A stretch of 64,000 nucleotides of DNA from Adineta ricciae (taxonomy: Eukaryota > Rotifera > Eurotatoria > Adinetida > Adinetidae), in contig CAJNOJ010000286.1 in NCBI GenBank assembly GCA_905250025.1, forward strand, positions 1 to 64,000. Reading direction: 5' to 3'. A program made the translations under genes and the position numbers. The notes beneath the pieces are model-generated. The model ran no database searches. It was not told the DNA's origin and was given only the letters and a program-made list of their open reading frames with translations. How positions within the stretch are numbered: position 1 is the first letter of the stretch; each line of letters begins with the position of its first letter. Below, piece after piece: positions 24,347-61,076 of the stretch.

Positions 24347-24347
24347 N
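24347..24347. other. single N: contig junction
   Basis: Copy A similarity to 49471 ends exactly here; the next base begins unrelated sequence. The counterpart junction is at 61076. Confidence 0.85.
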
Positions 24348-24499
24348 TCCCGTATCATTATTTCTCTCTAAATCTCTTTATTTTTCGAAAAATCACTACG
24401 ACTGTTGATGACTTATAATAAGTTTTCTTAAACTCTACTAAATTTTTGTTGAAGTTCATGAATTTTATTTGTTTTATTGCGATTTCACGAAGCTGGTTC

Positions 24500-24592
24500 A
24501 GGATCCTCCAGGATCTCATAGGATCCCTAGGATCCACCAGGATCTCGTAGGATCTCTGGGATCCACAAGGATCTGAGGATCCAGGATCCGCT
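24500..24592. repeat. tandem GGATC repeat
   Basis: About ten GGATC cores in 93 bases with spacing near 10 bp; units vary (GGATCCACCA, GGATCTCGTA, GGATCTCTGG). Many units include the palindrome GGATCC. Not present elsewhere in the window. Confidence 0.8.
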
Positions 24593-25689
24593 TTTCTCCC
24601 CTTGTGATGTTTCTAATTCAAGAAATCGGAAAAAGTGATATGAGCTTAGTATTATCTTTGCTTTGTAGGCTACATACATCATGTCTTTTCATAGGATTTT
24701 AGTAGAAGTAGTTTGCAAAGTGATATACCCGTTGATGAAATTCCATCTTCGTAAATACAGGCGCATGGACTATACAAACAGTATTCCGAACGCATGCGGC
24801 ACTATGAAAGATGTTCGTTTCGAAGCAAATCCTACAGTAAGATTTTCTGATCTAGTTTCTTTTGATAGTCGAATGAATAGAAGATCATGACTGTTGAAGC
24901 GACAATAAAAGAAAACCCAATCGTTCAGTTTGAAAGTTAATCAAAGGCGAAAGAAATAACAGAGACAGCATGGCAGCGGCTAGCCGTGAGTGGCTGACCG
25001 AAGGGAGGACGACAGACGACTAGACATTTAAATGCTAGATTAATCCTAAAGTGTACGCTTAGAATAACCTTGCCAAGCTTCTGATAACTTTGAAAGGGAT
25101 GTGACGAATGAATATTCCTCAATGAAAATATCCGACAAGGTATCATTTCGTTGACAGGAGAGAAAAGAATCGGATTATCGCTGGAAGACACGGACGAATG
25201 TCCAAACATTTCAAGTAGTGTACTGTATATCGTCCGTCTATGGGTAACTTAGTAAATCATTTATGAAAATTTCCATGCGCGCGATGTGAAAATAGAAAAG
25301 CAGAGGAGAAAGGTCAATGGTTGGCCTTGAATGGCCATCTGACTAGCCGTTGAGCGATGAATTTTGCAGTCAATATAGTGAGTGCTGGAGAATTGTCCAC
25401 TGACAAATGGCTAATCGGTCTGATTCCTAAAAAGACCTCTGTATCCTATTCATTCCAGTTCTAGTGTGTGACATAGTGACATGATTCAGTTGAGCACTAG
25501 TAGCAATCGCAGTGCGTTTTTTTTTCTTTCAAACTCTGTGAATGTGTTCAGCATTCGGAAAAATCTTTCACAAAAGGGTCAGCGAATCCAAAGGATGAGC
25601 GTTACTTGTTGATACAGACATGATATATATTATCCATTATAAAAACGTCAATTCCGGCTCGACAAAGCATCTAGATTCGTGTCCGTATC

Positions 25690-25807
25690 AAGTATCATCG
25701 AAAAGATACGCAGCCGGTTTGGAGCCGGCAAAATATTGTAGGCTCCGGCTCCACTTACAATCCTCTAAACACAGCTTCCGCTCCGGAGCCGGAGCTGCCC
25801 ATCTCTG
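25690..25807. mobile_element. truncated hAT-like MITE end
   Basis: A GC-rich patch with repeated GAGCCGG/CCGGCTCC motifs ending in GAGCTGCCCATCTCTGG. The terminal TGCCCATCTCTG equals the terminus of the element at 27889-28068. No left terminal inverted repeat was found, so one end is missing or diverged. Confidence 0.45.
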
Positions 25808-26213
25808 GTCACAAACGAATTTCAGTTTTTTGACCGCTTTTTTTCGATATGAACTCCTTACAATCAAGTGGAAAATTGCCATTGAGAATTTTCAGAAGAA
25901 TAGAATGTTATAGTGCAGCTTTTGAAAGGTGATGAAAGTGTTTGCATCAATTATCATCTTGAGAAAGAAAGCGAAACTACTCTCTCCTTTTAGTTGAGAA
26001 TGCAATCACTCTCATCTGATAATGAGTATTCACTTATAGAATAAAGCACAATTATTGCTCTTACATTACACTAGAAAATAAAAAACAGGAAGATCTCGAA
26101 TGGAACATATTTCCTTGTTTTAAGAAGAGAAAGGAACATCAGTTAGTTCAATTTCTTTCTAACTTGTCACATATTATACACAACGTCCGGTTTTCATTTT
26201 ACTTTGAACTATA

Positions 26214-27359
26214 ATGTTACTCTTATTTCTGTTCATTGTGCATAGCATCATTAGTAGATTGGCATTATCTTCATTACCTATTCGGTCTGCTCAAATCAAA
26301 ATTTATCACCAACATTCGTATATTGTAAGTCATATAATCAACCAAATTGGTTTTGGAGTGTATGCAAAAGATTTGTATTCATGCATATACAGTTGTCAGA
26401 ATAATGATTTCTGTCGAACAGCTGTTTTTGATTCTCAATTATTCACATGTCGTCTCTACGAAGAGTGTAATACTCAAGGACAAATGGTTTTTGATCCTTA
26501 CCAAACTCTTATATCATTTTTGGTATGTAAAGATGAGCCGGACAATGCAGGTTTTAGTTCACCTTTGATCGAATCTATTCCAATGCAAACTGTCATGTCA
26601 AATGCAGTATGGATTCAAAATTTGACACCAACATCAGATTCTTGGTGGCCATTTTTTGTCAATGATGAAATTTATGTTCCCATTGATAATGTTGTTTATA
26701 TTTATGAAACAAATACTTATTCATTTGTTCGATCTCTTATGATCCCAGTTACATCATCACTTTCTTACTTACGCGGCGATAGTCAAGGTATACTTATGTA
26801 TACACAACAAGATGATCCCAAGTTTTACATATACTCTTTAATAACAAATCAACTGACTACTATTGATATTTCATTTACAGGTGATACTTTTTGTTATTCA
26901 ACTAGTTTTATTGCAATGATTTCAACGTCGTTGAATGTAGTTGATGTGTATCTTCGCACGTCTATAAATAATTCTGCCACATTTATTTATCGAATCAATG
27001 GTTGGAATTCGATAGATCACTGTATCATTATCAACGATGAACAAATGATCACTACAGTGAATACTGGTGGTCTTCAAACAACGATGCTTAGTAAAGCAAA
27101 TTATAACTCGACCATTACAACATTATCATTGAATACCAGTTATTTACCAACAGGTGCAGCGTTAAATATAGATGCTGCAAATCGACTTTACGCAGCTCCT
27201 GATTCTTTCTGGCAAACATCAACAGCATTTTCAACAGATGGAAAACTGCTTGGTACTCATGGAGGTACACAAGATTGTGCTGGAAAGGCTAGCAAATATA
27301 AATTTATTCTTTTGACAACTGATGGAAGTCAAGTATCAGTATACGAATACAAACCTTAG
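26214..27359 (+). CDS. secreted apple/PAN-like domain protein
   Basis: 381-aa secreted protein of unknown function, single exon. The leader is MLLLFLFIVHSIISRLALSS. Residues about 45-105 look like an apple/PAN module with spaced cysteines (CIYSCQNNDFCRTAVFD, FTCRLYEEC, LVCKD), a fold that binds proteins or glycans. The C-terminal part alternates beta-strand-like segments (NAVWIQNL, WWPFFVNDEIYVP, LYAAPDSFW), which suggests a beta-propeller; this is inference. Such apple-plus-propeller secreted proteins are frequent in bdelloids as far as I recall. It stands to the left of copy B, where copy A has the NHL gene, so the two copies have different left neighbours. Confidence 0.75.
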   Translation: MLLLFLFIVHSIISRLALSSLPIRSAQIKIYHQHSYIVSHIINQIGFGVYAKDLYSCIYSCQNNDFCRTAVFDSQLFTCRLYEECNTQGQMVFDPYQTLISFLVCKDEPDNAGFSSPLIESIPMQTVMSNAVWIQNLTPTSDSWWPFFVNDEIYVPIDNVVYIYETNTYSFVRSLMIPVTSSLSYLRGDSQGILMYTQQDDPKFYIYSLITNQLTTIDISFTGDTFCYSTSFIAMISTSLNVVDVYLRTSINNSATFIYRINGWNSIDHCIIINDEQMITTVNTGGLQTTMLSKANYNSTITTLSLNTSYLPTGAALNIDAANRLYAAPDSFWQTSTAFSTDGKLLGTHGGTQDCAGKASKYKFILLTTDGSQVSVYEYKP

Positions 27360-27888
27360 TATAATATCGAGTTGATTTTAATTGTATGTCGTGTAAAAGT
27401 ATGAATAATTACAATCGAAGTTTTATCGAAATAAATAAGCATTTTTTTTCGAAATTGGAAGCCAATAAGAATAGAAATGAGTTCCTTCTTAACTTGTTAT
27501 TTGATCAGTTATTCTATACTTTTTACTTAGGTGTATCCAAAAGTAATGTCATATCTATTTTATTTCTTTATTAAAAAGTCAAAAGAAAATTCTTTTCTTA
27601 CAAAAAAGATAGAGAAAGTGAAACTCTCTTGTTCTATGCTATTTGATTCTCATTCAGTTAATGCCATAGCAACAAAATTTTCGATGTGAATTATTTTTGT
27701 GCAAAACTTAGGTAACGAAGTGACCATTATAAGTGTTAACATTTCTAATACAGTATGTTAAAAATCGGTATGTACCAAAAGATACAGCATGAGGTATTCT
27801 ACAATCTGCAGAATAAAATTTATTTGAATTATGTATTTTTTGTTTTCGAGAAAAAAACAAAACTCCGCACGACTAATTGTGTCTGTGG
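27360..27888. other. spacer, no supported gene
   Basis: AT-rich sequence with short chance open frames only. Confidence 0.5.
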
Positions 27889-28068
27889 CAGAGATGGGCA
27901 AGTCAGAGGTTTTTCCAAGTCAAGTCCAGTTTGACCTGACTTGACTCCGTTCAAGTGAAAAAATGATCTGATATGGCCATTTTTGACATTGAAAACCTCT
28001 TTCCATGTGCCTCTTACATTGATTTGAGTTGGTTGAAGTCAAAAAATGACTTGACTTGCCCATCTCTG
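27889..28068. mobile_element. hAT-like MITE, 180 bp
   Basis: Begins CAGAGATGGGCAAGTCA and ends with its exact 17-base reverse complement TGACTTGCCCATCTCTG. The inner parts also match imperfectly (repeated AAGTCAAGTC/GACTTGACTT). CAGxGxTGGGCA termini are characteristic of hAT elements, which duplicate 8 bp; the flanks (GTCTGTGG and TTCGTTGC) match at only half the positions, so the insertion is old or the duplication decayed. No coding capacity. Confidence 0.8.
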
Positions 28069-28071
28069 TTC

Positions 28072-28091
28072 GTTGCCGACGCGTCGGCAAC
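28072..28091. repeat. perfect 20-bp palindrome
   Basis: GTTGCCGACGCGTCGGCAAC, three bases to the right of the MITE. It is GC-rich in an AT-rich region and has no second copy in the window. Confidence 0.75.
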
Positions 28092-28693
28092 AAGTCATAG
28101 ACAGTGATGGAGGTTAAATTGTTGAAACCTAGTTGTATCTTTTGAAGTTAAGAAACAAAAAGAAAATTTTCAAAAAAAACGCAAAAACTTTCTGGCTAAC
28201 CCAATATATCGTCTCGACCTATGTGACACCAGCGATAATCAGTCTTTATCAACTGTACTGAGATACAGTCTGATGATTCTTACGCGACCTATCAACTAGG
28301 AATATAAATAACACTTATTTGTGAACTCTCGTCATATACGATGATATTTACATGATAATACATAAGACATCATAAAACGTCTTTTAGCCTACTTCACTCG
28401 GAGACCTAAATAAGAGTTGATTATGTCGCCATCATGCCCAAATATACGTATGCAGAGCTATGCACAACGTTTCAGGCTAATATGCCTAATGCATTGTCGC
28501 AATCTATTATTTCATGACATCAAGTGCACACGGTTTTAACCTTTTAATGATTTATGTTCGACAACATACTACACCACAATATTGTCTTTCTTAATAGTGG
28601 CTTCTGATGTTTGAAAAATACTCAAATTTCGATCGGTCAAGTCGTCAGAAACATACAACCTTACCCAATTTACTGATATTGAGGGGTTAGTAA
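28092..28693. other. spacer left of copy B
   Basis: No supported gene and no similarity to the left flank of copy A. Confidence 0.5.
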
Positions 28694-29405
28694 ATTACAG
28701 CGAGCGGAGCGAAAAAACGTTTTGCAGCGTTCCACGTATTAATAAATAATGTTCATCCTTCAGATCCGCCGACAATCTTCTGAAGGAGTTGTCCTAGTGT
28801 CGAGTCACCGGCGTCAGTCTTTTCTCAGTGACTAGTTTTCGGGTACTAATTGTGTGCACTAAAAATGCCATCGCTTTACAGTCAGTCGGCCACTGCGACG
28901 GTTAGCCGTTGATCTTTGTAATCTGGTTTTCCATTTTCACATTATACACATAAAAGCTTTAAAAGACACTATGCTTAGCTACTCGTAAACGAATGGTGCA
29001 TACCCGGCGGCCTGCAATGCTTGGATATTCAGGTGGGGAGAGCGGGATTTATGTGATCCTAGACATCCTCAAGATTCTTTCGCAACTATGAGAAACTATA
29101 GAATCTCATAGAAAAATAATGTTTTTCATTACTAGAAATAGAATTCTATTTAAAGGTGAGGGCACTATTTACACCCTCTTTCAAACTTTAGACGGATATT
29201 GTCTAAAAACTCATATATACAGTAAAAATTACAGTCAATAATTTTCTAGTTTTGTGTACGGTTTAGTTCGCTGAAAAAGCGTTGGTCAGCACACAAGTCT
29301 CGATACATTAGTGATCGTAAGACTATAATGTATAACATCATCCTCATGTTTGATTGAATGAAAACCAACATTTACAACATCATCATGAATAAATAACAAT
29401 CCAAT

Positions 29406-30471
29406 CTATTCAGTTGGTCTCCGACCCATAGTATTGATGATAGCAACATTTCTTTGATATATTCGTCGATATAAATCATTAGGTAATAAATTCCAAATAC
29501 CTTTGATCATTGTCTCTCGGAAAAGACGAGATGTTAATGTCGATAAATAAAACGATCGCACATTGATCATATAGTACAAATTGTTTGTTAAAACCAGCAG
29601 AAAATATATGACCGTCCATTCTTCAACAGTTTTGTTATCGTTCTTCGTTGCCAAAAAGTAAGAATACATTCCAATCCATTGTAAAATAAAGAAACTACTT
29701 GCAAATACTTGCGCAAATACCATTGCAATAAAGTGATTTCGAAAACGATTTCGCTTTCCAATCGTCACTACACTCTACAACAGAATATATGAATGAATAT
29801 ATATAATAATATGGCACAACACTTACAACTCGTTGTCGACTTTGAGAAAATTTTCGATAAGTTAAAAATACAAAGATTAACATTGTGACTGGTGTTATGA
29901 TTCCATGAATAACAATATAACTCACAGCGTTTTCTGTTGGATGTGCTGTTCCACATCCATAACCAGGAAGAATATCATACGAAAGGGGAGAATATAATGA
30001 TACAATACAACTAACAATAATAGTGAAGAAAATCATCATTGGTACCATTTTCAGTTGAAGAGTTCGTTGCATTCGAGATTTTAAACCACATGTACATGCA
30101 AAGCGATCAATGAGACACATTATTAAAAGATCTAATGATAATTGAGGGAAAAATACCAAAAGAAAAAATCTTAATTTACATGTAAAAATATCAGATATAT
30201 TCGAAAAAAGATTTCCAGATGATGGATTAAAGTATTGTGGAAATAAATTAACAAACAGATTGAGAATATCAACAAATGATGCTACGAGGGTGTACAGACA
30301 AAATGATTGTTTTCGAAGAGTTGGTTGAAGAAATGTAAAAACATTACCAATGAATCCAATAAGACCAAGAATTGGAATAATTAAAGAAAGTTTTGTTATA
30401 AAATTTTGCTGTGCGACATTGAAATCATCGATTATTGATTTTGTAAACGATATTGCATTATTTGATAGCAT
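29406..30471 (-). CDS. rhodopsin-like peptide receptor (copy B, intact)
   Basis: Seven-helix receptor of 337 aa. Exons complement(29827-30471, 29406-29773); the intron is GT..AG, phase 0 (SRQRV|SVVTIGKRNRF). TM1 is LIIPILGLIGFIGNVFTFL, TM3 begins from FTCKLRFFLLVFF, and the DRY position reads IDRFACT. An extracellular Cys pair (FTCKL and YGCGTAHP) would form the usual disulfide. TM6-TM7 lie in exon 2 (FASSFFILQWIGMYSYF, YFLLVLTNNLYYMINVRSF). The ligand is unknown. Copy A (4640-5520) is a pseudogene, so this may be the only working version at this pair of loci. Confidence 0.85.
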
Positions 30472-31214
30472 AATATCGTTTTATGAATTGTATTCTACAG
30501 ATATGATAGACTAGATTATATTAATAAATAAATAAAGATTGTTCAAGCATGGACCTATATTATTAGAAATTTTAATTCAAAGCTTTGCTTCAAACGTGCT
30601 TCATTTGCCATAAATTATTTTAATAATTCATGGCGTTCATCCATTATCAGGCAAAAAAGATTTGAACACATAATGAGTCTCTTTGATAATGGAGTTATTT
30701 TTAATTCTTTTCTAAGTTAACAAGTCTAAGTAGAAGTTCTTCCTTCTATTCTTACAACAAAATGAGCAACATTCCATGTGAATTGTTTATCGTGCAGAAA
30801 AACCATATCAATGAAATGATCATCATATAAATTCCGACAGAATGCAAAGAACTGAAAGATGATCAAAGGAAAATGGTATTGTTTTTCTCAATGAACACCA
30901 TATTAAAAAGCACTATGGGATACATCGAATTGATATCATATAAGTACGAACGAATATTATACATTTTATCTGCAGTATTCAACCAATATCTATTAAATCT
31001 GTCATAGATGACTTGTTTGAAATCAGAATTATCCTTCAATTGGCTGAAACATCTTGTTAGGTATCGACATCAAGGAATGGTGCAAGAATTTATAAGGATT
31101 ATACAGTTGCAACGAGTTTTCTATGACGACATTTGAGATCAACTGACTGTTGCTCAAAATTAGATATATATCCATAAAATATCAGTAAGAATTGATACTA
31201 TTCGACAGGTACAG
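30472..31214. other. spacer, no supported gene
   Basis: Counterpart of 5521-6244; no conserved open frame. Confidence 0.5.
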
Positions 31215-31455
31215 AGTCTCATCGAGACTCTTCTTTGGCTTATTCGATAAAAATCTGCGGATCAACCCAAGTGACTGAGTACTTCGTCAAAAGCTTGGAA
31301 ACATTCCTTTGACAACAATTGCACTAAGAAAACCGACTCCAAATACTACACCTTCAAGTAGAACTCAGTGTTCTTTGAACAATGAGTATGCAATAACTAT
31401 GTTGTGTAAAAATCCGAATGCATCATAAGTGTAAATGCCAATGGAACTTACATTG
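31215..31455 (-). pseudogene. membrane protein gene fragment (copy B)
   Basis: Counterpart of 6245-6500. The minus strand reads NIVIAYSLFKEH, TGA, VLLEGVVFGVGFLSAIVVKG, MFPSF and then a second TGA not present in copy A. The first stop is shared between the copies. Confidence 0.45.
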
Positions 31456-32525
31456 ATATAGTCACTATACCAAAGTATCTAATACTCATTTTCGTCTTCT
31501 TTCAACACATATGCTTACTCGAGTTTCGTATGATATGTTAGACAATCAATTGTCAATTGATTATTCCTTCAGAATACACTCTAGCGATAAGATGCGTCTA
31601 TTCCTTTCTCTACTACTCCATATATGTATATGCAAAAGCCGAATCAAAATAATATAGAGAATCAATTTGTCTCAACTAATGCACCAACACAGTACTATCG
31701 TCAACGACTTGTATATATGAACCTGGACATCAAGCAGTGAACATATTAATTGTAATAACGAAAGAGAACGTAATGATATAAAATAGATAGAATCCGTTGG
31801 GTAGACCTGGTCTGGTTCGAGTTCGGATTCCAGGAAACTTTTGCACATAGAAAAATTCACTAAGAAAGTTCAAAGATATGTCAAATACGCCAGTTATGAA
31901 TATCGATAACTTAAGAACACGACTATGCATCTGTATAACGGTTACGATAAATGAAAACTAGTGAAGAGTTTACTCTAAACTTCGAGATAATCAGAGTGTA
32001 AAATTATAGCATACACACATATTTTATACACGTATAATGCTTCATTTCACTACATAGAACGAGAAATGTCTCTTGCAGCGACACCCTATATCTTGTCAAT
32101 AGAAAAAGAGAACTTTTTTCTCAGTTCAATAAAAGCATATCGCTCGTTCAGGAGCTCTGGTTCAGATATGTGCTTTTTTCTACCTCGAAAAAACCTTCCG
32201 TGGCTTTTAAGGATCAACAATCGATTAATAATGACATAACTGCGAAAAAGTGTATGGCGTATTAGTTTATAGAGCAATATCACTCCACTTGCCCTCTATA
32301 TGCGTTTGGTGTTGTGATATTCAATAGATTAAATCGATAAGATATTACGTTAATTCTATCGAAGTCTCTATGAAAATCTCCTATTATTCATCTACTTTCG
32401 AAATATCAGATAGAAATGAGGCAATCAACTTGACACGAAACAGAAAAGCAGCATTTTGTTTTGCGTATAATTATGTAAGACTTGAAATTACTCAATTCTT
32501 TGAGTATGATGTGTCCGTATGCGTA
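31456..32525. other. spacer upstream of eIF5A (copy B)
   Basis: Minus-strand open frames at 31672-31930 are not preserved in copy A. About 165 bp at 32045-32210 are absent from copy A (which reads directly from ATAATACTT to AAGGATCAACAA at 7180). The insert has a CTT repeated at both edges but no clear inverted repeats. Confidence 0.45.
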
Positions 32526-32533
32526 TATATAAA
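32526..32533 (+). promoter_or_regulatory. TATA box of eIF5A (copy B)
   Basis: TATATAAA 38 bases before the ATG, same spacing as in copy A although neighbouring bases differ. Confidence 0.55.
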
Positions 32534-32570
32534 GCACTACTTTATGTGTAGAAGTTCAGTTTCTTTTACA

Positions 32571-33123
32571 ATGGCTTCACGCGATTTCAATTACGCCGAA
32601 CCAAGCGCTTCGTCCGATAATGCATCTGATTCCGATATGAATTCAACTCCAGAACGTGTTGGTGCAATTCACAAGTCAGATCACGTCGTGCTCAATGGAC
32701 GTCCCGTCAAAGTAGTTGAAGTAGCACATTCAAAACCAGGAAAACATGGTCATGCAAAGGTTAATTAACAAGCTCTTTCACTTTTTTTTTAATCTTTAAT
32801 CTGATCTTCTTCAGGTTCATTTAGTTGGTATCGACATTTTTACAGGTCGTCGGTATGAAGATGTTCGTCCAGTTGGACATATGATTGAAGTACCAAATAT
32901 CCAAAAGAAAGAATATAGCGTGGTTGAGCTCAATGAATGTAATTCTATTATATTACGTGACGATAATACAGGTAAAATGCGAAATGATTTAAAATTAAAA
33001 AAAGATTCGGATGTTACCGCTCGAATCCTCGACAAATACAACGAAGGGAAGGGTCGAATAAAAGTTACCGTTTTCAAAGTACTTGGCGAAGAGCAAATCA
33101 AAGCATTTAAAGTAATTGAATAG
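32571..33123 (+). CDS. eIF5A: translation factor eIF5A (copy B)
   Basis: Exons 32571-32759 and 32815-33123; 165 aa, identical to the copy A protein, with the hypusination loop SKPGKHGHAKV. Only one silent substitution (codon 6) distinguishes the coding sequences. The 55-nt intron differs from copy A by one T in a homopolymer. This identity contrasts with the strongly diverged intron of the neighbouring transporter pair and points to recent gene conversion, or to assembly read mixing. Confidence 0.95.
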
Positions 33124-35267
33124 CGCCGATGAATGCATATTGATGTCTACAGAACATTGATCTCAACAAAATAAAAATAAAAAACATTGTGTTTTCCTAA
33201 ATTTCATTGTAAAATGAAGATTCATCAGTTTACGTTTTTAATTCAAATTGAGGATGTGTAATTAGTTTTCTCTCATTCTCAGCCTTGTCATTGAAATTAG
33301 AACTATTTTCATGGAACAATAGTTTTGCGATGTATGTAAAGAAAAGTAAATACGATTTCTTCATTTAAGACTTCAATTTGTATACTTGGAATCTTTTATA
33401 TCATTTCTACGAGTGACTCCATGGGAAACGTGATACGTTTACCACAATCATTCATAATTATGGTTAAATTCCTATAGTTTCCATTATTGTAAAATGATTC
33501 TATATTCACTATTGTTAAAGGAGAAGAGAATTTATTTAAAAGACACCTATCAGAACGGAAAAGCAACATAGAAAGTTTTGTTTATTGTTGCTCAAAGCAT
33601 AATCGTGCGTCGATCTATAATCTGATAAAACACAAAATGGCACAATAATTGAAGGAACAAAGATCATTTATGTCAAAGACGGTGAATAAATATTCCTTGC
33701 AAATCTTGGATAACCCGATGCTTGCACAATCAGAATAGAATTACTTTGTAAATCACAAATACTAGGAACACTTGATAGTAACAAGAGTTGAAAAATCAGG
33801 TCATGACAATGACACTATGTGCCGTTTCTGCTTAATAAATCGCAACAGAAGTGTAGAACTACAAACAGAAATCAAAATAATTGGTAGTGTATAATCGTCA
33901 TATATATCATATGATTTTAACTAATAGGGGATATCTATATACAAACAAATTGGTTCACAACGCATCTTAGCGGAATTCAGAGTTTGACCACAAGAATAAA
34001 GAAAAAGCACAGAATGTACAGAGAAAAGAAGATCAACGGTAAATAATGAATCAGTAAACGTCGACGAAAGGTGGAAAGGAGATTTGTATGAAATAACAAT
34101 ACGTGTCGTTCGAATAATGCCAAAAAAATATTAACGAAACAGCTCTATACTAAATTCCATGATCGACACATTGCCAAATCAAACAAAGTGATGGAGTAAA
34201 CGGTAAAACACAAAGATATGAAATGGAATTGATATGTCGATGTTCACCAGAAATAATGAAAAGTAAATGTTCGATCAAAAGAATGGAACATTTTATACAG
34301 TTGAAAGGAGATTTCACATTTGGATTTTCAAATCTTTTATTAAATAAATTGTTACTAACAGAAATACTAATGTGTTAACACGAAAGTTTAATTAGAATAA
34401 TGGAGAGAAAACAATGTGAAAAGAGATTTTGATGAAAAAAACTTTGATGTTTTACAAACTGAAATGTAATTGGGTTTTGTGACGATTCATCAAATAGAGT
34501 CAGATGTGATTATCTTTCATTTTTATTCTATTTTAACAAACACCAAACATTATTAGTGAGGAGTAAGATGTTTGACAGGTTGAGAATTACCTACATATTT
34601 ATATTTCTTGCAACTCATTTCATTCCAACTTGATAAAAACTAAACCTTCTTGTCGTCTATGTCGTAAGAACTAATCAACAAACCAAACTTTATGACAATT
34701 AAACACTAATTATATCCTTTAATTTATTCACCATTTGAAGAGATTTCAGAGAAGAAACTGAATCTTAACTGATATGCAAATGGTGTAGCTGTCATACATA
34801 GAGATATGCCATAATTCATGAGCTATGCAAATATAAAAACTATAACGTTAATGTATTTTTATGAGAATTATTCATCCATTTAAATATTTTTATTTCTTAA
34901 AAATATGATTACTTGTATATGAATAATCGCATGTGTCATAAAAATACTGCAAATGAAAAGTGAGATGTTATTCTTTCATATATATCTATGATTGTTAGTC
35001 TCGGGATCTCTTGACTATGAAAGAGCAGGTTTAATAGTCTTCAATCATATTTGGTATTTGTTAATATTCTGTTCTGATTTTTTATTCTGTATTTTTCTTC
35101 AGTGATCAACAAAAGAAACAAAGAAACTGAATTGTTGTGAGTCGATATTATTCACATCAGATTTGTTCGTCAAGTTGTTGCTCGTGAACAATTTCAAATA
35201 GATAAATCTGAAATTTCATTTATTTTATGTTATATTTTAGCCTTAGTCAATTGATAGTCCTAACTTG
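33124..35267. other. spacer with insertions relative to copy A
   Basis: Contains about 1.1 kb (33480-34620) and about 260 bp (34726-34985) absent from copy A. In 34150-34377 one plus-strand frame reads KTQRYEMELICRCSPEIMKS followed by a basic stretch, which looks protein-like but has no start or recognisable family. I call no gene. Confidence 0.4.
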
Positions 35268-47899: not shown

Positions 47900-48130
47900 G
47901 TGCTCAAGAAAATTCAATGAGACAATCATCATTAGAGTATAAGATTTCCGGGAAACGATCGAAGTATTTTCTTCGAATAAACCGCATGACTTTTTCTTAA
48001 ACTGTAAAAATTTATTTCATTCTGTTGCTGATACATTTAATCATCGAATTCAACGTTTTCCGTTGATTAACATCACTAAGCCAAACAATGAGACAACAGT
48101 TGACGGCAGAAATTATTCAGATTCTTAAAA
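47900..48130 (+). pseudogene. NHL-repeat gene remnant (copy B)
   Basis: Only one blade is still readable (SVADTFNHRIQRFPLINI, followed by ETTVDGRN). The preceding blade seen in copy A (22560-22690) is deleted here. Confidence 0.55.
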
Positions 48131-48521
48131 CAATCAACTAAATCGACCTTTTGCTATTTATATGTCGAAAACAAAATATAATGATCGTATTCAACGTTGG
48201 AACGCAAGAATTACTTTAGATTTTGATGAAACATTTTTCTATGTTGTCGATAATGCAAATGAAGGTGTGAGTGTTTCTTCAAGTTATTTACTTTCTTCCC
48301 TCGTGTCCATACTTTTGTGTAAAAATAAAATATGCTGATAAGATAGATTTATTTATCTTAGAACTGTTTGAGAAGAAAACAATGCGAAGTGAAAACGGTT
48401 TATGAGGTGATTTACTTTCGTATCTTCATCGCGTACCTAATCTAACCTTTGCAAAGCTGTGTCGACGAGAAATCTTCTCTGTTTTCTTTTAACAAGAGAA
48501 GTAAAAAGACAGAAGACAAAA
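48131..48521. other. spacer upstream of SIAE (copy B)
   Basis: AT-rich, nothing supported. Confidence 0.4.
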
Positions 48522-50300: not shown

Positions 50301-51559
50301 CACTTACAAGTACTTTTAAATGAGAATGTCTTCTTTATTTCACAACAAAAACGTTTTGACTTGATAATAAAATGCGAAGAGATAAAAAAAGATTTTTCTT
50401 CTTTAGATGCTCATTGTCCGTTGATTAAAATACATATGGGCCGAGAAAAGAATTAAAGATGGTCGCTTCTATAATCTCAAAACGAAGATTTATTGGAAAC
50501 ATGATCTCATAGATCAACTCTACCGTTTGTCTCTCGTGGAATGACTAGAGAATTGGAATCAAGTCATATCGCATCTTCAACAAACTTTCGTAATATACGA
50601 ACAAACTCAAGTCTAAGTGAGGACATCCGAACGAAGGTTAGAAACAGTAACATCCATGGAAATACTTCTTTTTGCAGATGTCGAAATCAATTGAAATATG
50701 ATCAAAATATCAAGATCGATGTTCTCTTCGTCAATGACGCAATTAGTTTCTTTGTTTATATTTATTATTAATTTTAAAACTCAATTCAAATACTTCATTG
50801 TTTGACAAATCGAACTGTTCTGCTTCCATTTACTTTTGTTGTAATAGGCGTTTTGTTGGAAATTTCTTCACTAAACAAAAAACATATTTTCATTCATAAA
50901 GAAATTTCTCTTGTTAATTTTCTTTTTATGAAAATCTTTTTCCATGGGTTTTATTCGTCGCATTGTAGATACTCAATTTAAGATTATTTGTGGACGAGAA
51001 ATCGAGTGTGCATAACAACAAAAAAAACATGCTCACGTATACATGTGCAATTTCCTCCCTCCTCGAGGGATTTTATCTAAACAACGATACGATCACTGTG
51101 CATCGCTTTTAAACATAAAATCAGCATGCAATAATGTATGACATATTTTCATTTAATTAGCCATAAAAGAAAGATAAAGAATTTACCTTTCTAGTAAATT
51201 AAGATGAGTGACATTAATTCGTGTTTTTGTAGCCCTACATTATGTTGATGTCGTATGATTCACAGCAATGTAAAAGTACATTCGTATGCCCTGAGCAATC
51301 TTATTTTTCTGTACTTTCATCCAGCTTTTCAATAGGAACGTAAAAAAAATGTACAGAAACAGTGTGTCAACTTGTTGTGAAGGAAAAAAAGGCGTAATAA
51401 TCATGACTCTCGAAATACGACGGTTAATTATTCATAAATGTCGAAGGAGAATGAAAAGAAAAAAAAGTGTGCGCGGTGGCCTTACACATTTTTTTAAAAA
51501 TCGATAAACAAGACAACTTACTACTTATATTTGTTGTGAAGTTGTGACATCAGAAAAAA
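50301..51559. other. spacer between SIAE and the b561-like gene
   Basis: A plus-strand open frame (50541-50771) is not conserved in the other copy (62180-62410 carries frameshifts). No gene called. Matches 61607-63232, which is about 370 bp longer. Confidence 0.5.
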
Positions 51560-52357
51560 ATGTCAACAACAACGGTACCGGTCTCTGATAATTCTACTTC
51601 GCAAGAAGATAATCGATTGGCATATGCTCATGGTACAGTAATGGCTATAACATGGATGGTTTTTGCTTCGACAGGTATTCTTTTCGCTCGTTATGGTCGA
51701 TTGTTACGTATTGGTAGTAAAAGAAAAGTTCTTGGTGAATTTGTTTGGTTTCAAGCTCATCGTTTAACTCTTTCTGTGGCTGCTTTTTCTACTCTTCTTG
51801 GCTTTTTTCTTGTATTGGCTCAAGCAACAGGAAGTTGGGTGAGTTTAGATGACGATGGACCGTATGTTGTTGCTCATTCAATCCTGGGCATAATGATTGT
51901 TGGTTTTGCTCTAATTCAAATTTGGATGGCACTATTTCGTTGTCATCCGATTAGTCGTTTTCGTTTTATTTTCAATTGGCTTCATCGATCTGTAGGACTC
52001 TTAGCTTTTGTTCTTTCCATTCCGACTATTTTTCTTATTATCAGTACTTTAACTAATTATCAAAGTGGTTTATACATTGTTATGTCAATTTGGACAGGCT
52101 GGACTGTTTTCATTTTCGGTCTATTTGAAATTTTGACATATCTCAATCAGAGAAACTCTACATCTTCATCAGAACATACTTATAGAACTGACAGAGAATA
52201 TGAACTTCGTCCATCAAGTTCAATTTCAAATAACAATACGGATAGTGATCAAGAAGATCGTTTTAATCAAATAAAGTTAATTCTCCTTGGCATTTACGTG
52301 GTGATTGCTATTGCTCTTGTCATTCCCTTTATTATCCTGATTTGGCAACAGAATTAA
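51560..52357 (+). CDS. cytochrome b561-like membrane protein without DOMON (copy B)
   Basis: 265-aa protein with six predicted membrane helices, of the type that moves electrons across a membrane between two hemes b, as in ferric-chelate reductase/DOMON-linked b561 proteins. Four histidines sit at expected helix positions: AHGTVMAITW (helix 1), QAHRLTLS (helix 2), VAHSILGIM (helix 3) and WLHRSVGLLAF (helix 4). The family usually has an N-terminal DOMON or reeler domain; here only about 20 Ser/Thr-rich residues precede the core. A Ser/Asn-rich loop (SSSEHTYRTDREYELRPSSS) precedes the last helix. Likely donor ascorbate, acceptor ferric iron; this is family knowledge. The other copy starts at 63233. 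Confidence 0.85.
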   Translation: MSTTTVPVSDNSTSQEDNRLAYAHGTVMAITWMVFASTGILFARYGRLLRIGSKRKVLGEFVWFQAHRLTLSVAAFSTLLGFFLVLAQATGSWVSLDDDGPYVVAHSILGIMIVGFALIQIWMALFRCHPISRFRFIFNWLHRSVGLLAFVLSIPTIFLIISTLTNYQSGLYIVMSIWTGWTVFIFGLFEILTYLNQRNSTSSSEHTYRTDREYELRPSSSISNNNTDSDQEDRFNQIKLILLGIYVVIAIALVIPFIILIWQQN

Positions 52358-53484
52358 TATTATTCGTTTGTTCAAATTGAATCAATTACATTTAAAACAG
52401 TTCATATTTTTCTCTAATATTAGTTGAATTAATTTCTTAACAGATTTGAATATTATCTGTGGATTTATTTTTCCGAATGTACAAATTATAAAAAAAGATT
52501 CGTCAATGTTAGTTTTAACAGAAAATGTTCTAATTTATGTACAACTGTAGTCTCTTCCGCTTTATTCGAAATAACACTTGCAAGAAGAAATAGACATTAT
52601 GAGCACAAGACTGTCTAAAAGAATATTCAGAATAGGAGTTATAGCATTCAATTTTTTTGTATCATTGTAAGTATTATGACAATTATTTATCTATGCTAAA
52701 AGTCTATATTCGAATGTAGGTAAAACAATACTAATATCCTTTAACAATATTGATCGTTTGACAGCGACACACTATCTACTGAAATATATTGGATGGATAG
52801 GTCGTAGATACGTCTTTCTTTGCGCATAAATATCTTAACAAGATGTTGTGAATAGTTGGGTTTGGTGAGAAGAAATTATTCATCGAAGTTCATTTTGAAT
52901 GGTAAGATGAAAAAATACTTTATTTGGGAGCGTGTAATCAAGGGGTAAATATAATGTCACTGGTGAGAAGTGAATTGAACTGTCTTTGTTGCACTGAAAT
53001 TCACAAAAAGCAGGATTAGTGTTGGCTGTTGATTTTATCGTTTTTTGCTTTGTTGTTTCGACTAACGCGGATAGGTGAAGATGAGCCCTCACCCATCCTT
53101 AACACCCTCACCCTCGAACGAAGTGTGATTTAGCGTGAGTCGTATTGCTTTCTCACCTTCATTTTCGCAAATATGCCAACAATGGTACGCACATTGCTTC
53201 ATACTTTGCATTGACTTCTATCAAATAGAATACATATTGTATTGAGGGTGTGTGGGTGAGATTTTTAATCGGATTTTGTGTTCTGTTAACGAAACTTTAC
53301 ATAAACTTATCAATGGTGAAGGCTAATCTGATATTCCATTTAATGAGACTCTATGGTATAAATAACTCTTATGATTCGAGCAACTGTACTCTCGTTCAAT
53401 CTTGTCACATATATATTTTTAACTACAATACAGTAATGTCTCTTATCGAAAAACTGTTATCGGAAAAGAAAAAAGCCAATGATT
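52358..53484. other. spacer, no supported gene
   Basis: Contains two short patches of CACCCTCACC/GGGTGTGTGGGTGAG but no telomeric array. The open frame 53250-53492 is motif-free. Confidence 0.5.
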
Positions 53485-53640
53485 GCACATGAAGGCTATA
53501 TTTACAGTCAAGAAGAAGCTAAAACAACTAAAATTATTTTTCGATGTCCGGAACGAAGTTGTAAAGGTAAATATCAAAGCGATATGTTTGATTTAATTAA
53601 AAGACATTTTTACAGTAAGGTCGATTTCATACAAGTTTAT
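53485..53640 (+). pseudogene. FLYWCH-type zinc-finger fragment
   Basis: Reads AHEGYIYSQEEAKTTKIIFR, CPERSCKGKYQSDMFDLIKR, HF: the start of a FLYWCH-like Cys2His2 finger (C-x4-C-x-G), found in DNA-binding proteins derived from Mutator-like transposons. No ATG-initiated gene or downstream domain follows, so I treat it as a relic. Confidence 0.5.
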
Positions 53641-53729
53641 CAATACCAAAATTTATAAACATTTTCTATTAGAACAGCAATAGGAATTTGACATTAGCTT
53701 CGAATGATGAAGTAGTGATTTTATATCAT

Positions 53730-54850
53730 TATGTGTGAACGAAGAAAAAGAATATAAGGCGTATCTATGTACGAATGTTTCGCTTTATCAGTTGCACGAG
53801 GAAGAATTGTTTTTTGGACACTGTTTAACAAAAATAAGTGATGCAGATAAAACTATACAGCTTTTGACGGATGTGAAGCGGATTCGGATAATTTTCATCA
53901 AGATCCCGACTATGAAGAGGAAGATACAAAATCCAAAGTTTTCGAGAACTTCACTCTCTCTCTCTCTCTTATGCAACGGGCTCTAGAATTTTATGATACT
54001 ATCAATCCTACAGCAGGTAAAAGAAATCACACATTGAACAATGTAAAACAAAACTTTCAACGTACAACTTACGAATATTATATGGCTCCTTTCCGAAAAT
54101 GCGTCAAGGAAGAGAGGACGAAAAAGTAGAAGGTCGACTCTGTCGATGATTTCGATTATATCCGAGATTTACTATGTCCTGTGCATGACATCGATCTGAA
54201 AAGATGGGGTTATCAACAAGCAAGATCAATGTCATTAAATTTTAAACAGTAACACGGTATTTGTTCACGTAAAATAACTAAGGTAGTGTCAAAGCGAGAG
54301 ATGAAGAATGAAAATGGTATTCAAAAATCGACTGATCTATCTGTGGCGGAGATACGGAAGCTTCTTTCGCACTATCAAGAAGATAATGTTTTCAATACTG
54401 ATCAGTCGGAGCTGGAACTTGAAATACATTCTGGTCGCACTCTCAGTTACGATGGCAAAAAAAAACGGCGCTTTCAATGATCCGTTCTAGAAATACTACT
54501 ACTCACAGTTAAACTGTACAATCGATGATGATTATGCTGGTAAAGTGAATGGACCGGTTTTCTTACGCGTCTCAAAGAACCGAATGAGCGATACTATCGC
54601 AATAACGTGTAGTGCCTCGGGTAAACGCACGATCTCGTTATTTAAGTACTGACGTGACAACGTGCACATTCCCTCAATCGCTGATTCACCTCGAACCCTT
54701 CTACTCTCTCACAGTTGGCTCGGCCAAGGCGATGGAAAGAGTAATTATGAAAAGGTAAGGGATTGTAAACAAATCGAAATTCCACCAAAGACAACGGCTA
54801 AAATCCAACTTCTTTTTTAACCACAAATATATAGTTATTCTCGATAATAT
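53730..54850 (+). pseudogene. DDE-superfamily transposase relic (pogo/Tc5-like)
   Basis: Pieces in different frames resemble a bdelloid transposase as I recall it: an acidic start (DPDYEEED), PVHDIDLKRWGYQQARSMSL (helix-turn-helix region), CSRKITKVVSKREMKN, then ENVFNTDQSE-like DNVFNTDQSELELEIHSGRT, which carries the first catalytic aspartate (NTDQS), and ILDNID near 54845. Stops and frameshifts throughout show it is dead. The exact superfamily (pogo, Tc5 or CENP-B-like) cannot be fixed by eye. Confidence 0.6.
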
Positions 54851-55343
54851 TGATATCCAAATGGCTTAACGCAATAACACCATCAAACTCCATTTGCTCA
54901 TTCACAATCAAATCTCCGCTTCCATCTATACGCCTATGATACTCAATCTGACATATCTTCTTTGGAAGTCGCTAATGGAGTGAACCAAAAGGGGGTGCTG
55001 CATTACTAACTAGAATCTACAAGACAAGAGTAGTCTGGGCCCTACGGCTTTTTATCAACTCGAGAGATCCATTCAATCTGAGCCACCCGTTAAGCATACA
55101 CCTTTTTCACACCCTTCAGAAAATATGGTAAACAAGAAGAAGAGAAGAGAGAACAGCAATTTTCAGCTAAAAGTTTTCATGTTTTGAAAGAGTAACTACA
55201 GAAATATTTACTTTTCTTATACATAAAGTGAACGCAAAAAGTCTGAATAATACATTTTGTTCTCTCGCTGCCAAAGAAAAACATCAACTTATTTCACTTT
55301 GAATTGTTTCTGTACAAAGAAATTCTTCTTTAATCATATTGAC
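54851..55343. other. spacer, no supported gene
   Basis: May include further decayed transposon sequence; no terminal repeats recognised. Confidence 0.4.
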
Positions 55344-56125
55344 ATGGAGAAAGCTTATTCAAAGTCAGTTTTACGAATTCCATCGAAACAATTAGAAACT
55401 AGAGATCTAAATCAATCGAATAGCTATTCAACAAGAAAATCCAAGTTTGATTTATTATATTGAATTCATTTCTCTTTGTCAATTGTCCAATATAATTAGA
55501 TGTACTATTCGACGATGTATATGTCTTCAATTATTAATTCTCTTGGGTCTTCTTACATTAGCAGCACTTATTATTCCGATTGTTGTTCTCGTATATGGTA
55601 AGTTGAAACAAAAATTCTTTTACTTTTCTTATTTCTTTATATTTTCTAGATAATCTAAACAATGGTAAGTAATCGGAATGAAGTCTTTCTATATATCGAT
55701 ATAATATCATCTTTGTAGCATGTGCAGTCACGTATAGCGATACTTTTACATATACTGCATTTCCAACAACAGCTCAATGTTCAAATTGGCAAACTTTTAC
55801 AAGTACTTTAACTTGTCGAAGCTATTCCAAAATGCATATTTATGGTTCAAATGATCAGACAGGCGTGACTTTAACAGATTCATTTGTTGTTACTGCACTT
55901 GCTACAGCTTTGAGATATAATGGATCAATTACTATTAATTCAAATGGAGCTATTTGGAGTGTTGGTTCATGTTGGGGTGGTTATGGAATTGGTTCGACCG
56001 GTAGTTGTAATTGTGGTAATGGCTATGCAGTTAGACCATGTGTTAATTCTGCTTACTATTGGGGAGGAACAGCTGGTACAATATGTAATGCACAATCGCA
56101 AACTCTATCGATTTCTTTTTCATGA
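55344..56125 (+). CDS. single-pass membrane protein with Cys-rich extracellular domain
   Basis: Exons 55344-55444, 55500-55597, 55650-55664 and 55719-56125 total 621 nt (206 aa), all introns GT..AG and in frame; one exon is only 15 nt. A short cytoplasmic N-terminus with basic residues (RRCICLQ) leads into a membrane helix (LLILLGLLTLAALIIPIVVL). The extracellular part has Thr-rich beta-strands and paired cysteines (QCSNWQTFTSTLTC, WSVGSCWGGYGIG, CNCGNGYAVRPCVN, GTICNAQSQ). Similar lineage-specific domains occur in many copies in bdelloids, from memory; no function is known. It has no second copy in this window. Confidence 0.78.
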
Positions 56126-57229
56126 AATGAGTAAAAATTATGAAATAAAATCAAATTTCATTTGAAAAAAGAGCCTTACAGAAATAGATTATTCGTATTT
56201 CACTATGATTGAAAAACAGTATGTAAGAATGAAAAGAGCAATTTTTCTCTACACAGTTTAACATGAATTCAATCAGAATAAAGGAGCTTGAATGTAGTGC
56301 GTTGGGTCTTAATGAAGAGTTAGCTTAATTGTACTATGAAGGGCTCAGAAACGTATTTCAAAATCCTTAGTGTGATACCGCACTAAAAGATGCAGCATTG
56401 AAAGCTGAGCAAAACTGCCTGTTTGCATCTTCTTTCTCTATTAACTTAAAATTGTTTTCAGACAGCACCATGCTGAAAAGAAGCTATTTTTCCAGTGGAA
56501 AAAGGGAAGTGTCTTTCAGAGTATCAGCTGTCGTTCCGTCAAAACACGAGAACCCAAGCTGAACTTCTGATATATTGTACATTTTATTCTCCTCTGCAAA
56601 ATGATTTTTTTAAAGAAATATCGAATATTTCTCAAGTCTATAGTATCATCAGATCAAGAAATGAATCTAATATTCGGAATCAACACAAAAGCCTGCATTA
56701 AAAACCATCAAAACTAGGGACAGAAAATGTTTGTAAATAAGCTGATCGGAAGAGAATCTCAATATGTAATACTTTGTTCTTCTTCCAATACTCGCATATT
56801 TTCCATATAAAATGAGAGTATAGCAATAATCTAGTGTATTATGAAGTGTTCTGCAAGTTTATAGCCGAGTTATGAATACATTTCATGTTTTTTTCGTTTC
56901 ATTTCTCATTAGGTTCCTCTCGGCGATTATTTTGATTACAAAAATCTCGTCAAAAAGTTTCGCTTTGGTAATAAATAAGTATGCAACAATTCCGATTCGA
57001 TTCTGATTCTAGAATTGGCCCAGAATCGACCAGCAGTGGCTGGAATCGAGCCGAGATATATTCAAATATATTACTACTATTAACTAAACTGTGAAAGTTG
57101 TTAACTATGGTATGTCAGTTCTGAACCAATTCCAGTCAATCCTAGTCAGTTTCATTCGATTTTGGAATCTGGATTGGTGCATGACTACTTCTGACCAGTC
57201 ACCTTCACCCAGTTGCGGGAAGCGAGAAC
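56126..57229. other. spacer with a possible MITE
   Basis: No gene. Segment 56985-57180 starts with AATTCCGATTCGATTCTGAT and ends with an inexact inverted counterpart (ATTCGATTTTGGAATCTGG), suggesting an old inverted-repeat element. Confidence 0.35.
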
Positions 57230-58320
57230 TATGAAACAAGAAATACAGATGATTTGATTTGAGCGGCAAATGGCAAGAGATAATGAAGTACAGTAGGCAG
57301 TCAATTGTACGGGCCCGAGATCATCCAAAATATAACGGCGAGAGATAGATTTGAATTACTCGTCTAGTTCTGGCTTCTTTCGGACAATCATAATCATCAC
57401 TCAAACCAAGATAGGCTAATCAAGCTGAAATCACTTCTGGATTTGCGGAGAGGCAGATTTTCGTCTGTATATGTTCTTGGTGCATTTGTTAAAGTCGATG
57501 AAACTATGACACCATGGCGTAGAAGACTTTTTGTTCAAACAATATATACCTGGAAGAACGCACCAATATGGAATGAAAATGTACAAGATAGCGGCTATAA
57601 ACGGATAAACATGGAATTATTTGATCTATACTGGTGAACAAGATCCGATGGCAGATGCTGGGCAGGCTGAGACAGTCGTGATGAACTTATTGAATGGGCT
57701 CTCAGCATGTTATCGAACTGTAGTAGCTGACAACTTCTCTACCAGTATTTCCCTTGCAAAGTGTTTGTTGGCACACGACACATACCTTATTGGAACACTG
57801 AGAAGTAATCGTGCCGCGTCAGGAAGAGAACTTCTTCAACAACAGCTGCGGTAGACACTGGAAAAGCAAATTTGCAAAATGAGTCAATTATGAAGTCACA
57901 AGTTGTGTTAGATTATAACAAAGGAAGACAAGATATTGATTTATCTGACCAACTGACAGCATATTATACATGTCCCAGTCAATCTATAAAATGATATTGA
58001 TAGGTGGTATTTGAATTGACTTTTGGAACAGCTATAGTGAACAGTTATCTGGTATATAAGGAATAACATTCAGCAAACAATATGACGATTCTGAAGTTTC
58101 GTGAAAGTCTTGTGAGATCGTTACTGCTCGGCATGTTATTCGAGCAACTGAAACTAAGTCTAAGACAAAAATCTATAAGCCAAACGAAGCGCAAACTTGC
58201 TGACCATATACTCGAAGACGCTATGCTGGTTGCTACGAGAAAATCAGTCAACAACAATCGAGAGAAATCGGTCATGCAGCTGCAAAGAACGTAAAAACTT
58301 GCTGCCCTGATTGTTTCAAT
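57230..58320 (+). pseudogene. piggyBac transposase relic
   Basis: The plus strand in shifting frames reads, in family order: RDRFELLV and FWLLSDN (N-terminal part), DRLIKLKSLLDL, VDETMTPWRRRLFVQ (first catalytic Asp), IYTGEQDPMADAGQAE, RTVVADNFSTSISLAKCLLA (second catalytic Asp), HDTYLIGTLRSNRA, LDYNKGRQDIDLSDQLTAYY (third Asp), KFRESLVRSLL, and a Cys-rich end (CCPDC). At least four frame changes or stops separate the parts, so it is inactive. Terminal repeats and TTAA target sites were not found. Confidence 0.85.
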
Positions 58321-58632
58321 CAGAAGCATCTTACTTTCTAATAAACGGCTAAATGATACCAAGGGTACAGTTAATGACATATAATGTGTGACATCTGACT
58401 AAGAAAAAAGATAGAAAAAGGTTTTTCCCTATCGAGTTTCTTATAAAAAAACAGAATGTGGAACCGACTGGTGGGTCCCATCGTGTCGAATGTGTTAAAA
58501 CATTTTCTTTGTAATCATTCCTCATTGATAATATTTTAAATATACATTCAGAGAAGAACGTCAGCGGAAAAGGAAATAGATGGAAAAAGAGCAGATGTTC
58601 TATATTTTCATTTGAAACTCTTCGATAAAAAA
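58321..58632. other. spacer upstream of the LDL-receptor-like gene
   Basis: No supported gene or motif. Confidence 0.4.
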
Positions 58633-61075
58633 ATGAAGTTGATACAGATCTTCATGCTTCTCTCAATATATTTCAAATGTTATTCTCGTTATACATTTTA
58701 TCATAGAAATAACGATCAAACATTCGATTGTTTATATGCTCATATAGAATATTCTCATCAAATCGATAGCGGAGCTTATCTAACACTTTCACACCTCATT
58801 CCTTTTTGTCAACAATTCAATGAAAACGACAAACCAAATGAAAATGTGGAAAATGGCATAAGTTTTGAAGATCTATCGAGAAACGGAATATCAAGTTCGC
58901 AATTATTGAAATGGTTTGTTCCAATTGATATTGCAGAAGAATATGAAATCAATAGTAAACATTCGAATGAATTCTTTTATAATTGTTCATTTCCTTGGTT
59001 TGGTTCAACATGTCAATTTCAATTAATTAAAGATGAAGAAGTCACATTTGGTGAACTTGTTCGTTTTATTTTTCTCGAACGTGATTCTCCATCATCTGAT
59101 CTTGATTTTCCTATTGGTACATGTTATCTCTTCTTGAAGAATTGTATTCGTGGACCATCACCAGTGTGTCTCGATTGGCGTGAAATTTGTAATGGTGTTA
59201 ATGATTGTATTGATGGAGAAGATGAAGAATTTTGTGCTTTATTAGAAGAAAATCGATGTTCAAATGAAGAATTTCAATGTGTGAGAAGTAAAGAATGTAT
59301 TTCACGAACATTTGTCAATGACCACACAGAAAGTCTTGATTGTCTTGATACGAGTGATGAAAAAGAAAAATTCGAAACGGAATTTGGAGAAAATTGTATC
59401 AAATTTCCAACATTTGAGTGTGAAGAAATAGGTCGTGGTGTTCGGGATTATTTTTCATGCGGCGATGGGCAAATAAAGTTAAATCTAATGCCTCGTTTTC
59501 ACGCTTTTTGTGCAAATCTACGAGATCAACACATGACAAAAACTCTTTTTACTTCATTTCATTACATTTCCAATGTTCCATGTCGAAAACTTCTCATGTG
59601 TTACATTCGTCCTGATCGAATTCATTTTCTTTCACATTTACCGGATGAAATTCATTGTGAACTTCCCCTTGAACATTGTCCATTGAAATGGGTCGTCTTT
59701 CCCGAATATCCCATACTTTACTCAACGTTCCAATTTGTTTATTTTACAAATCGATCGATATCTTTATCAACAGATGATATTACACCAGATTTGATTTGTT
59801 TTAACGCAATTCGATGTCCAGAGTATGTCTTTTGTTCGATAGATATCGAAATACAACATGGTCTCCATTGTTGTCGGGCTTTTGATATATTATATGATCC
59901 AATTGATACCTGGGACGCATTTCAGCTTATGTTTGAACTTATTTTTCAAAATTGTTTCAAAATTATTCAAAGTGATACATCATTATCGATTGATGAAAAC
60001 GCAAATTCCTCTGTAAATCTCTGGTTGAATTCACATAAAACATTTCCATTTGCACATTTTTGTGATGGTCAATGGCACATACGAGATAATGACGAATCGA
60101 CGGAAACTGATGAAACTAATTGTGATTTATGGCCATGTAATAATCCGTATACTCGATGTAATCAATATTTACATTGTTGGAATGCAATTGATGAAGTCAA
60201 TTGTCCTAAAGATCAATGTGGATCTGATGAACTTTATTGTAAAGATGAGGCATTTCAGATTCGTTATTGTTTACCGAGATCATTTCTAGCAGATGATCAT
60301 ACGAAATTTACTTCAGATCGATATTCACGAGTTGTACATTTAATCAATGAAACAATCGGTGATGTGAGAAATTATTTCTTTTGGAATCAAACCAAATGTC
60401 TCACTGTGGAATATTCGAATCGAAATGATTTGACACGATTAGTAGCAAATAATAACGATGCTTGTTTAATCCCGAAACATCCGAAATTTGTTTTTCCTAA
60501 AACTATGATTGTTATGAGAAACAAAACAGATCTTTGTAGAGCTGGTTCAACTGTTGCGAGTAATTATATTGAAGATCGACCATATCTTCAATCAGCACAT
60601 TTGGGTTATTTTCCATCGATTGTTCCTCCGACTTCTCATCAATCAACAATGGTTCAATCAGATGAAGCATCTCCTATCGATCTTCATACAGATGAAGTTG
60701 TTAGTTGGTATTGTAATCGAGGATTTGCCATTTTTTATCAAAAAAATCGAACGATCAAATGTCTTTGTCCACCAAGTTATTTTGGTTCACGATGTCAATG
60801 GCAAAACCAATGTATTAGTTTATCATTTCAATTGAAATATTTCACTTTCATGTATGAAATGCCTATTTTCCAAGTCATTCTCATGCTTATTGATGATCAA
60901 AGACAAATTTCCCCGTACAATGAACAAACAATTCATGTCCCGAAACGTGATTGTGGAATTAAATATCATTTTTATTTACTTTATCCATCAAGACCAAAGA
61001 ATTCTTCGCTGAATTATTCAGTTCAGATTGATATTTTCAATCGAATTACATTGACACATTGGGCAAGTTGGCTTT
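58633..61075 (+). CDS. LDL-receptor class A / EGF mosaic protein, 3' end missing
   Basis: Start of a large secreted or membrane receptor; 814 codons are open, then the contig ends at the N at 61076. I choose ATG 58633, which gives a leader MKLIQIFMLLSIYFKCYS; the frame is open a few codons upstream without ATG. Visible modules: LDL-A repeats with the calcium-cage signature (CLDWREICNGVNDCIDGEDE, then EFC; DCLDTSDE; HCWNAIDEVNCP), a Cys-rich region, and an EGF-like module (WYCNRGFAIF, CLCPPSYFGSRCQ). In bdelloid relatives such proteins continue into more EGF units and often a membrane region (recollection, not shown here). No intron is needed in this part. The apparent continuation to 61131 is a false frame that reads across the junction into SIAE intron sequence. 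Confidence 0.82.
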
Positions 61076-61076
61076 N
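61076..61076. other. single N: contig junction
   Basis: Left side is the interrupted LDL-receptor-like gene. From 61077 the sequence equals 49771 onwards (last two bases of SIAE exon 4 and its intron). Confidence 0.85.

Follow-up and report, generated by a model that had tools for sequence, protein, structure and literature searches.

An apparent tandem duplication in Adineta ricciae is almost certainly two homologous haplotypes scaffolded in series

We analysed bases 1-64000 (the window) of scaffold C286 (120,782 bp) of the bdelloid rotifer Adineta ricciae, in which a region containing the SIAE gene occurs twice and the two copies, A and B, meet at two single-N joints. This apparent tandem duplication is almost certainly an assembly error, in which two homologous haplotypes of one region were scaffolded in series. 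The error is an ordinary artefact of a known class, false heterotype duplication, and the gene order across 24347 and 61076 would, by the evidence presented here, not be that of the animal.

Alternation of two haplotypes along scaffold C286

The only non-ACGT letters in the window are the Ns at 24347 and 61076. Beyond the window, C286 is interrupted at 69109-69174 (66 N), 74696, 76619, 85788, 113717 and 119569; the eight gaps split the scaffold into nine pieces (p1-p9), and the alternation of A and B goes on past the window. Alignment of the two copies showed that A 3924-24346 is collinear with B 28691-49471, with 94.0% identity between 23134-24346 and 48247-49471, and that the piece from 61077 aligns starting at 49771, with 95.9% identity over 687 columns. 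These results bear out a first-pass annotation of the window, which had reported only two Ns and had matched 24346 to 49471 and 61077 to 49771, with about 299 nt missing from A. The annotation had also described a homologous block with its own flanks at 28694-52327. The block is present, but its first base is 28691, and 52327 is where the end of the window (64000) falls on B; the left flank is unmatched as described, but on the right the A/B homology in the full scaffold reaches the final base of B (61075 = 74610; blastn).

The partners of p2 were, in order, p1, p3 and p4, and those of p7 were p6 and p8. Across five piece pairs, with overlapping high-scoring segment pairs dropped, A and B were 93.2% identical over 42,279 ungapped aligned columns, and chance likeness is therefore excluded; in some non-coding stretches the identity drops to 78-85%. 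Two diverged haplotype copies are thus found on one scaffold with assembly gaps between them. The last piece, p9, had no match of at least 60 nt elsewhere inside C286, and its first 203 nt match scaffold C298 directly after a C298 stretch that matches p7.

We calculated synonymous divergence (Ks) by the Nei-Gojobori method for five A/B open reading frame pairs. The values were 0.143 for the glutamate receptor, 0.193 for a G-protein-coupled receptor, 0.169 for an SBF-like transporter, 0.089 for the SIAE 5' exon and 0.046 for the SIAE 3' exon. In A. ricciae, homologs have published mean Ks values of 0.135-0.14 and ohnologs a published mean of 1.27 (PMC5916493; this and the other papers are cited from the parts of their text available to us). 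Because the A/B range of 0.046-0.193 lies with the former, A and B are, judged by their divergence, homologs and not ohnologs.

We also searched the genome (130.5 Mb in 1033 contigs). Glutamate receptor DNA matched A at 94%; no other match longer than 100 nt exceeded 76% (best 40 of 43 candidates). A 341-nt SIAE query matched A and B at 99-100% and other pieces at 86% or less (16 of 16 candidates). Homolog-level copies of the glutamate receptor gene (within the same best 40) and of the SIAE piece therefore number two each, both on C286. A search with 52328-61075 (best 39 of 145 candidates) missed the 92.8% match in A that blastn detected on the same scaffold, so absence from such a list is weak evidence. 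The same scaffolding error might instead have mixed ohnologs from an old genome duplication, since bdelloids are degenerate tetraploids and the identity falls to the 78-85% noted above in places. We consider this very unlikely, as Ks was only 0.05-0.19 in all five pairs against the published ohnolog mean, and the other glutamate receptor copies among the candidates did not exceed 76%.

Two further observations concern these sequences. Scaffold C202 carries two glutamate receptor genes (171651-174278 and 189482-192106), 100% and 94% identical to the protein P0051 and about 15 kb apart, which may form a tandem pair or reflect a further case of interleaved homologs. At 7564-8148, A and B are identical in two adjoining runs of 193 and 392 bp within surroundings that are about 7% diverged, a pattern that would fit either gene conversion between the homologs or a collapse of sequence.

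Shared piece ends and reading frames across the joints

All 72 ordered pairs of a piece end and a piece start were screened for exact overlaps of 11 to 3000 bp. Exact suffix-prefix overlaps occurred in three pairs: p2 to p5 (136 bp), p5 to p7 (166 bp) and p6 to p8 (114 bp). None of them joins deposited neighbours, and the reverse-complement comparison of piece ends yielded no exact overlap. Contig borders thus carry identical sequence, though between non-adjacent pieces. Between the end of p4 and p5 there are 7 mismatches in 221 bases, all confined to the last 83, so p5 does not belong to A; between the end of p5 and p6 there are 2 in 221, both within the first 24. On this basis B would consist of p2, p5 and p7, and A of p1, p3, p4, p6 and p8, an assignment that is firm for p2 to p5 and less sure for p5 to p7.

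The receptor-like frame from 58540 stays open through p5 (74697) into p7 (85789), with 1509 amino acids (aa) in total. An LDLa match in its p2 part is weak and falls below the Pfam cut-off; its p5 part contains EGF and 7tm_1. When p2 was joined to p5, a 1440-aa frame crossed the joint; when p2 was joined to p3 as deposited, no frame crossed. Because of the exact overlap, and because the frame is open into p5 and not into p3, B continues at 74697 and not at 61077. Control joins of p4 with p5 and of p5 with p6, made with the 221-bp overlaps (7 and 2 mismatches), likewise stayed open, as homologs would. The 1509-aa frame was therefore dropped as proof of phase; only p2 to p3 is rejected by it. 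The path of B past 76618 is less sure, because it rests on 2 mismatches and the frame is open by either route.

Frames cross four of the eight deposited joints: p3/p4 (91 aa), p4/p5 (1484 aa), p5/p6 (783 aa) and p7/p8 (117 aa), and those at p4/p5 and p5/p6 contain the overlap twice. By the same rule, no frame crosses either joint in the window; the open-frame list extends 18 codons beyond 61076, which is below that rule. Both junctions in the window consist of N, and open frames are cut there. In SIAE, SASA (Pfam) matches the 5' exon in both A and B, and in A it lies in the exon preceding the cut frame (23475-24161). The misjoin would split and double gene models, namely SIAE and the 1509-aa receptor-like frame. 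A protein database entry identical to B's receptor (P0001) is assigned to a contig of 127,491 bp, compared with 120,782 bp for C286, a difference of about 6.7 kb. The larger value would suit the rank of C286 between C284 (130,156 bp) and C287 (126,912 bp), and several of the sampled scaffolds also have lengths out of rank order. Gap lengths enter no conclusion here.

Table 1. Pieces, joints and cut genes in the window of scaffold C286
Feature	Position	Strand	Remark
p1, haplotype A	1..24346		matches B from 3924 onward; 1-3923 without match in B
First joint, single N	24347..24347		A breaks off within SIAE; B contig starts
p2, haplotype B (36,728 bp)	24348..61075		homology to p1, p3 and p4 over 28691-61075
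B left flank	24348..28690		not homologous to A 1-3923
Second joint, single N	61076..61076		B ends within the receptor frame; A restarts within SIAE
p3, haplotype A	61077..64000 (to 69108 in the scaffold)		carries the SIAE 3' exon
B stretch without A counterpart (299 nt)	49472..49770		assembly gap of A (alignment)
Last 136 bp of B	60940..61075		identical to 74697-74832, the start of p5
SIAE frame of A	24175..24345	+	runs open into N
SIAE exons of B, unbroken	48600..50297	+	frames and Pfam
SIAE 3' exon of A	61106..61603		on p3
Receptor-like open frame, 5' part	58540..61075	+	at the end of B

Origin of the deposited order and its alternatives

We examined the position of the A piece ends relative to A/B-identical runs. 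The 42,279 ungapped columns contain 2,826 identical runs, 15 of them at least 114 bp long. Counting only runs on the same piece as the A end, and none across the 66-N gap, five of the nine A ends lay within 60 bp of such a long run, seven within 100 bp and eight within 250 bp, compared with background shares of positions of 8.0%, 9.5% and 14.6%, respectively. Among 20,000 random sets, 6, 0 and 0 reached these counts, a comparison that is a rough yardstick since identical runs cluster. Such ends would be expected if a short-read graph halts where two haplotypes turn identical, and branching of the assembly graph at near-identical haplotype sequence has been described (PMC8081667).

The deposited order of the pieces was then compared with where they align on the B path. 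In deposited order, the alignments begin at 4344 for p1 and p2 (set equal, so that the two tie), followed by 25424, 31820, 36593, 38294, 38349 and 46867, and p9, placed through the other scaffold C298, starts at 62552. The deposited order equals the order of these starts, and the order of the ends does not fit, suggesting that a step sorting contigs by start position was likely involved. The methods section of PMC7943196, in the text available, does not state how A. ricciae was scaffolded.

Taken together, the data indicate that A. ricciae carries this region in two diverged homologous versions, A and B. A short-read assembly would have separated them where they differ, and at identical stretches, of about 115-200 bp, it could not have assigned the two sides to haplotypes, so that contigs mostly ended there. 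A later step would then have lined up the contigs of both homologs by start position. B (24348-61075) therefore does not lie within A; it continues at 74697 and then most likely at 85789, and A passes from 24346 to 61077 across an assembly gap of 299 nt. The gaps, the collinearity, the exact overlaps, the frame open from p2 into p5 and the homolog-level Ks are observed; the reason for the contig ends, the joining program and the links that it used we infer. The first-pass annotation was thus right to suspect an assembler artefact, as indicated most strongly by sequence beyond the window, in the exact 136-bp overlap of p2 with p5 and the receptor-like frame, but its picture of a single contig filling a single gap gives way to one of haplotype pieces lined up. 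Likewise, the tandem linkage and order that it regarded as artefactual are false by this evidence, but the doubling has a real basis in two diverged homologs.

The deposited sequence does have the order of a real nested or tandem duplication, in which one copy of the region would have landed within the SIAE gene of its partner on the same chromosome, and linked homologs have been reported for the 2013 assembly of A. vaga (PMC5916493). Such a duplication is nevertheless extremely unlikely here: both borders are assembly gaps and not read sequence, the end of B exactly overlaps a non-adjacent piece while 61077 does not continue its frame, and the two homolog-level copies found among the candidates scored, both on C286, would leave none for the other homolog unless collapsed. 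There is just as little probability that the homologs are truly linked on one chromosome of the clone, as claimed for A. vaga in 2013, with the gaps marking junctions that were hard to assemble, since the sequence evidence parts A from B at the joints in the window.

Several points weigh against scaffolding of two haplotypes in series. The evidence is confined to the assembled sequence; the choice of p5 to p7 over p5 to p6 depends on only the 2 mismatches, with the frame open either way; two of the nine A ends (61077 and 69108) have no long identical run within 100 bp; and the left ends of A (1-3923) and B (24348-28690) do not match each other. This last mismatch, with its border at 3924 / 28691, may stem from an insertion in A or from another error of assembly. 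Other scaffolds provide points on both sides. In a sample of 20 scaffold starts (200 kb, with 21,286 bases given as N in three long runs), four scaffolds carried five single-N joints between them, and N runs of 2-99 were absent; only one of the five has the pattern seen in C286. At that joint (C285, N at 3776), the stretch 1650-3775, which abuts the N, is found again at 4903-7042 with 91% identity, and these 2.1 kb had no other long match apart from this copy 1.1 kb beyond the N. At three of the four other joints the adjoining piece has a homolog on another scaffold: C157 carries that of the piece between the two joints of C270 (86-91%), and C420 that of the piece preceding the C320 joint (95% over 7.6 kb). 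No homolog was found at the C295 joint. These results indicate that the error recurs, but that not every N has this meaning.

Flanking sequences also recur elsewhere. Within the left flank of B, 25872-27185 matches C609:2375-3680 at 90% and stops exactly at a single N there; C609 was reached by following homology and lies outside the sample of 20 starts. About 1 kb of the same flank (24605-25610) occurs on dozens of other scaffolds with 87-90% identity (best 40 of 609 candidates); it is a dispersed repeat and probably a transposable element. The scaffold start (1-122) is a 122-bp repeat found with up to 98% identity on many scaffolds (best 40 of 158 candidates).

Implications and comparison with known assembly errors

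Linked homologs on one scaffold have been taken to indicate that bdelloids evolve ameiotically. In a collinearity scan, C286 would probably count as carrying linked homologs, yet by the evidence of its own sequence the linkage across 24347 and 61076 is false. The check for exact end overlaps between non-adjacent pieces requires no reads and is applicable to the whole assembly.

We did not find C286 discussed in the available text of the literature on A. ricciae assemblies and false duplications. The assembly that contains it, Ar_ARIC003 (GCA_905250025.1), has been described with 135.6 Mb, an N50 of 283.8 kb and an L50 of 129 (PMC7943196); a literature search by accession returned PMC7943196 and PMC10739892. 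Nowell et al. 2018 reported two tandem linked homologous blocks in A. ricciae, on scaffolds ARIC00305 and ARIC00659, which resemble C286 in having tandem homologs on one scaffold but come from a different assembly, of 174.5 Mb in 4,125 scaffolds; the authors remarked that many collinearity breaks span scaffold gaps and that some may be scaffolding errors (PMC5916493). A later survey noted that some entries in its list of palindromes are false positives caused by misassembly (PMC7953838).

C286 also resembles the heterozygous overlaps addressed by purge_dups (PMC7203741), in which overlapping contigs of two homologs remain in one assembly and harm scaffolding; purge_dups decides by read depth, whereas C286 was judged from sequence. 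The closest description is that of false heterotype duplication, with homotype duplication at contig ends, by Rhie et al. 2021 (PMC8081667). As in the heterotype class, contigs of two divergent haplotypes lie on one scaffold with a gap between them, and branches occur at near-identical sequence; as in the homotype class, short duplicated ends occur at contig borders. The main test in that study was half coverage, whereas the present case was assigned from its letters. Unlike the cases described there, C286 alternates over nine pieces, and its exactly shared ends belong to pieces that are not adjacent.

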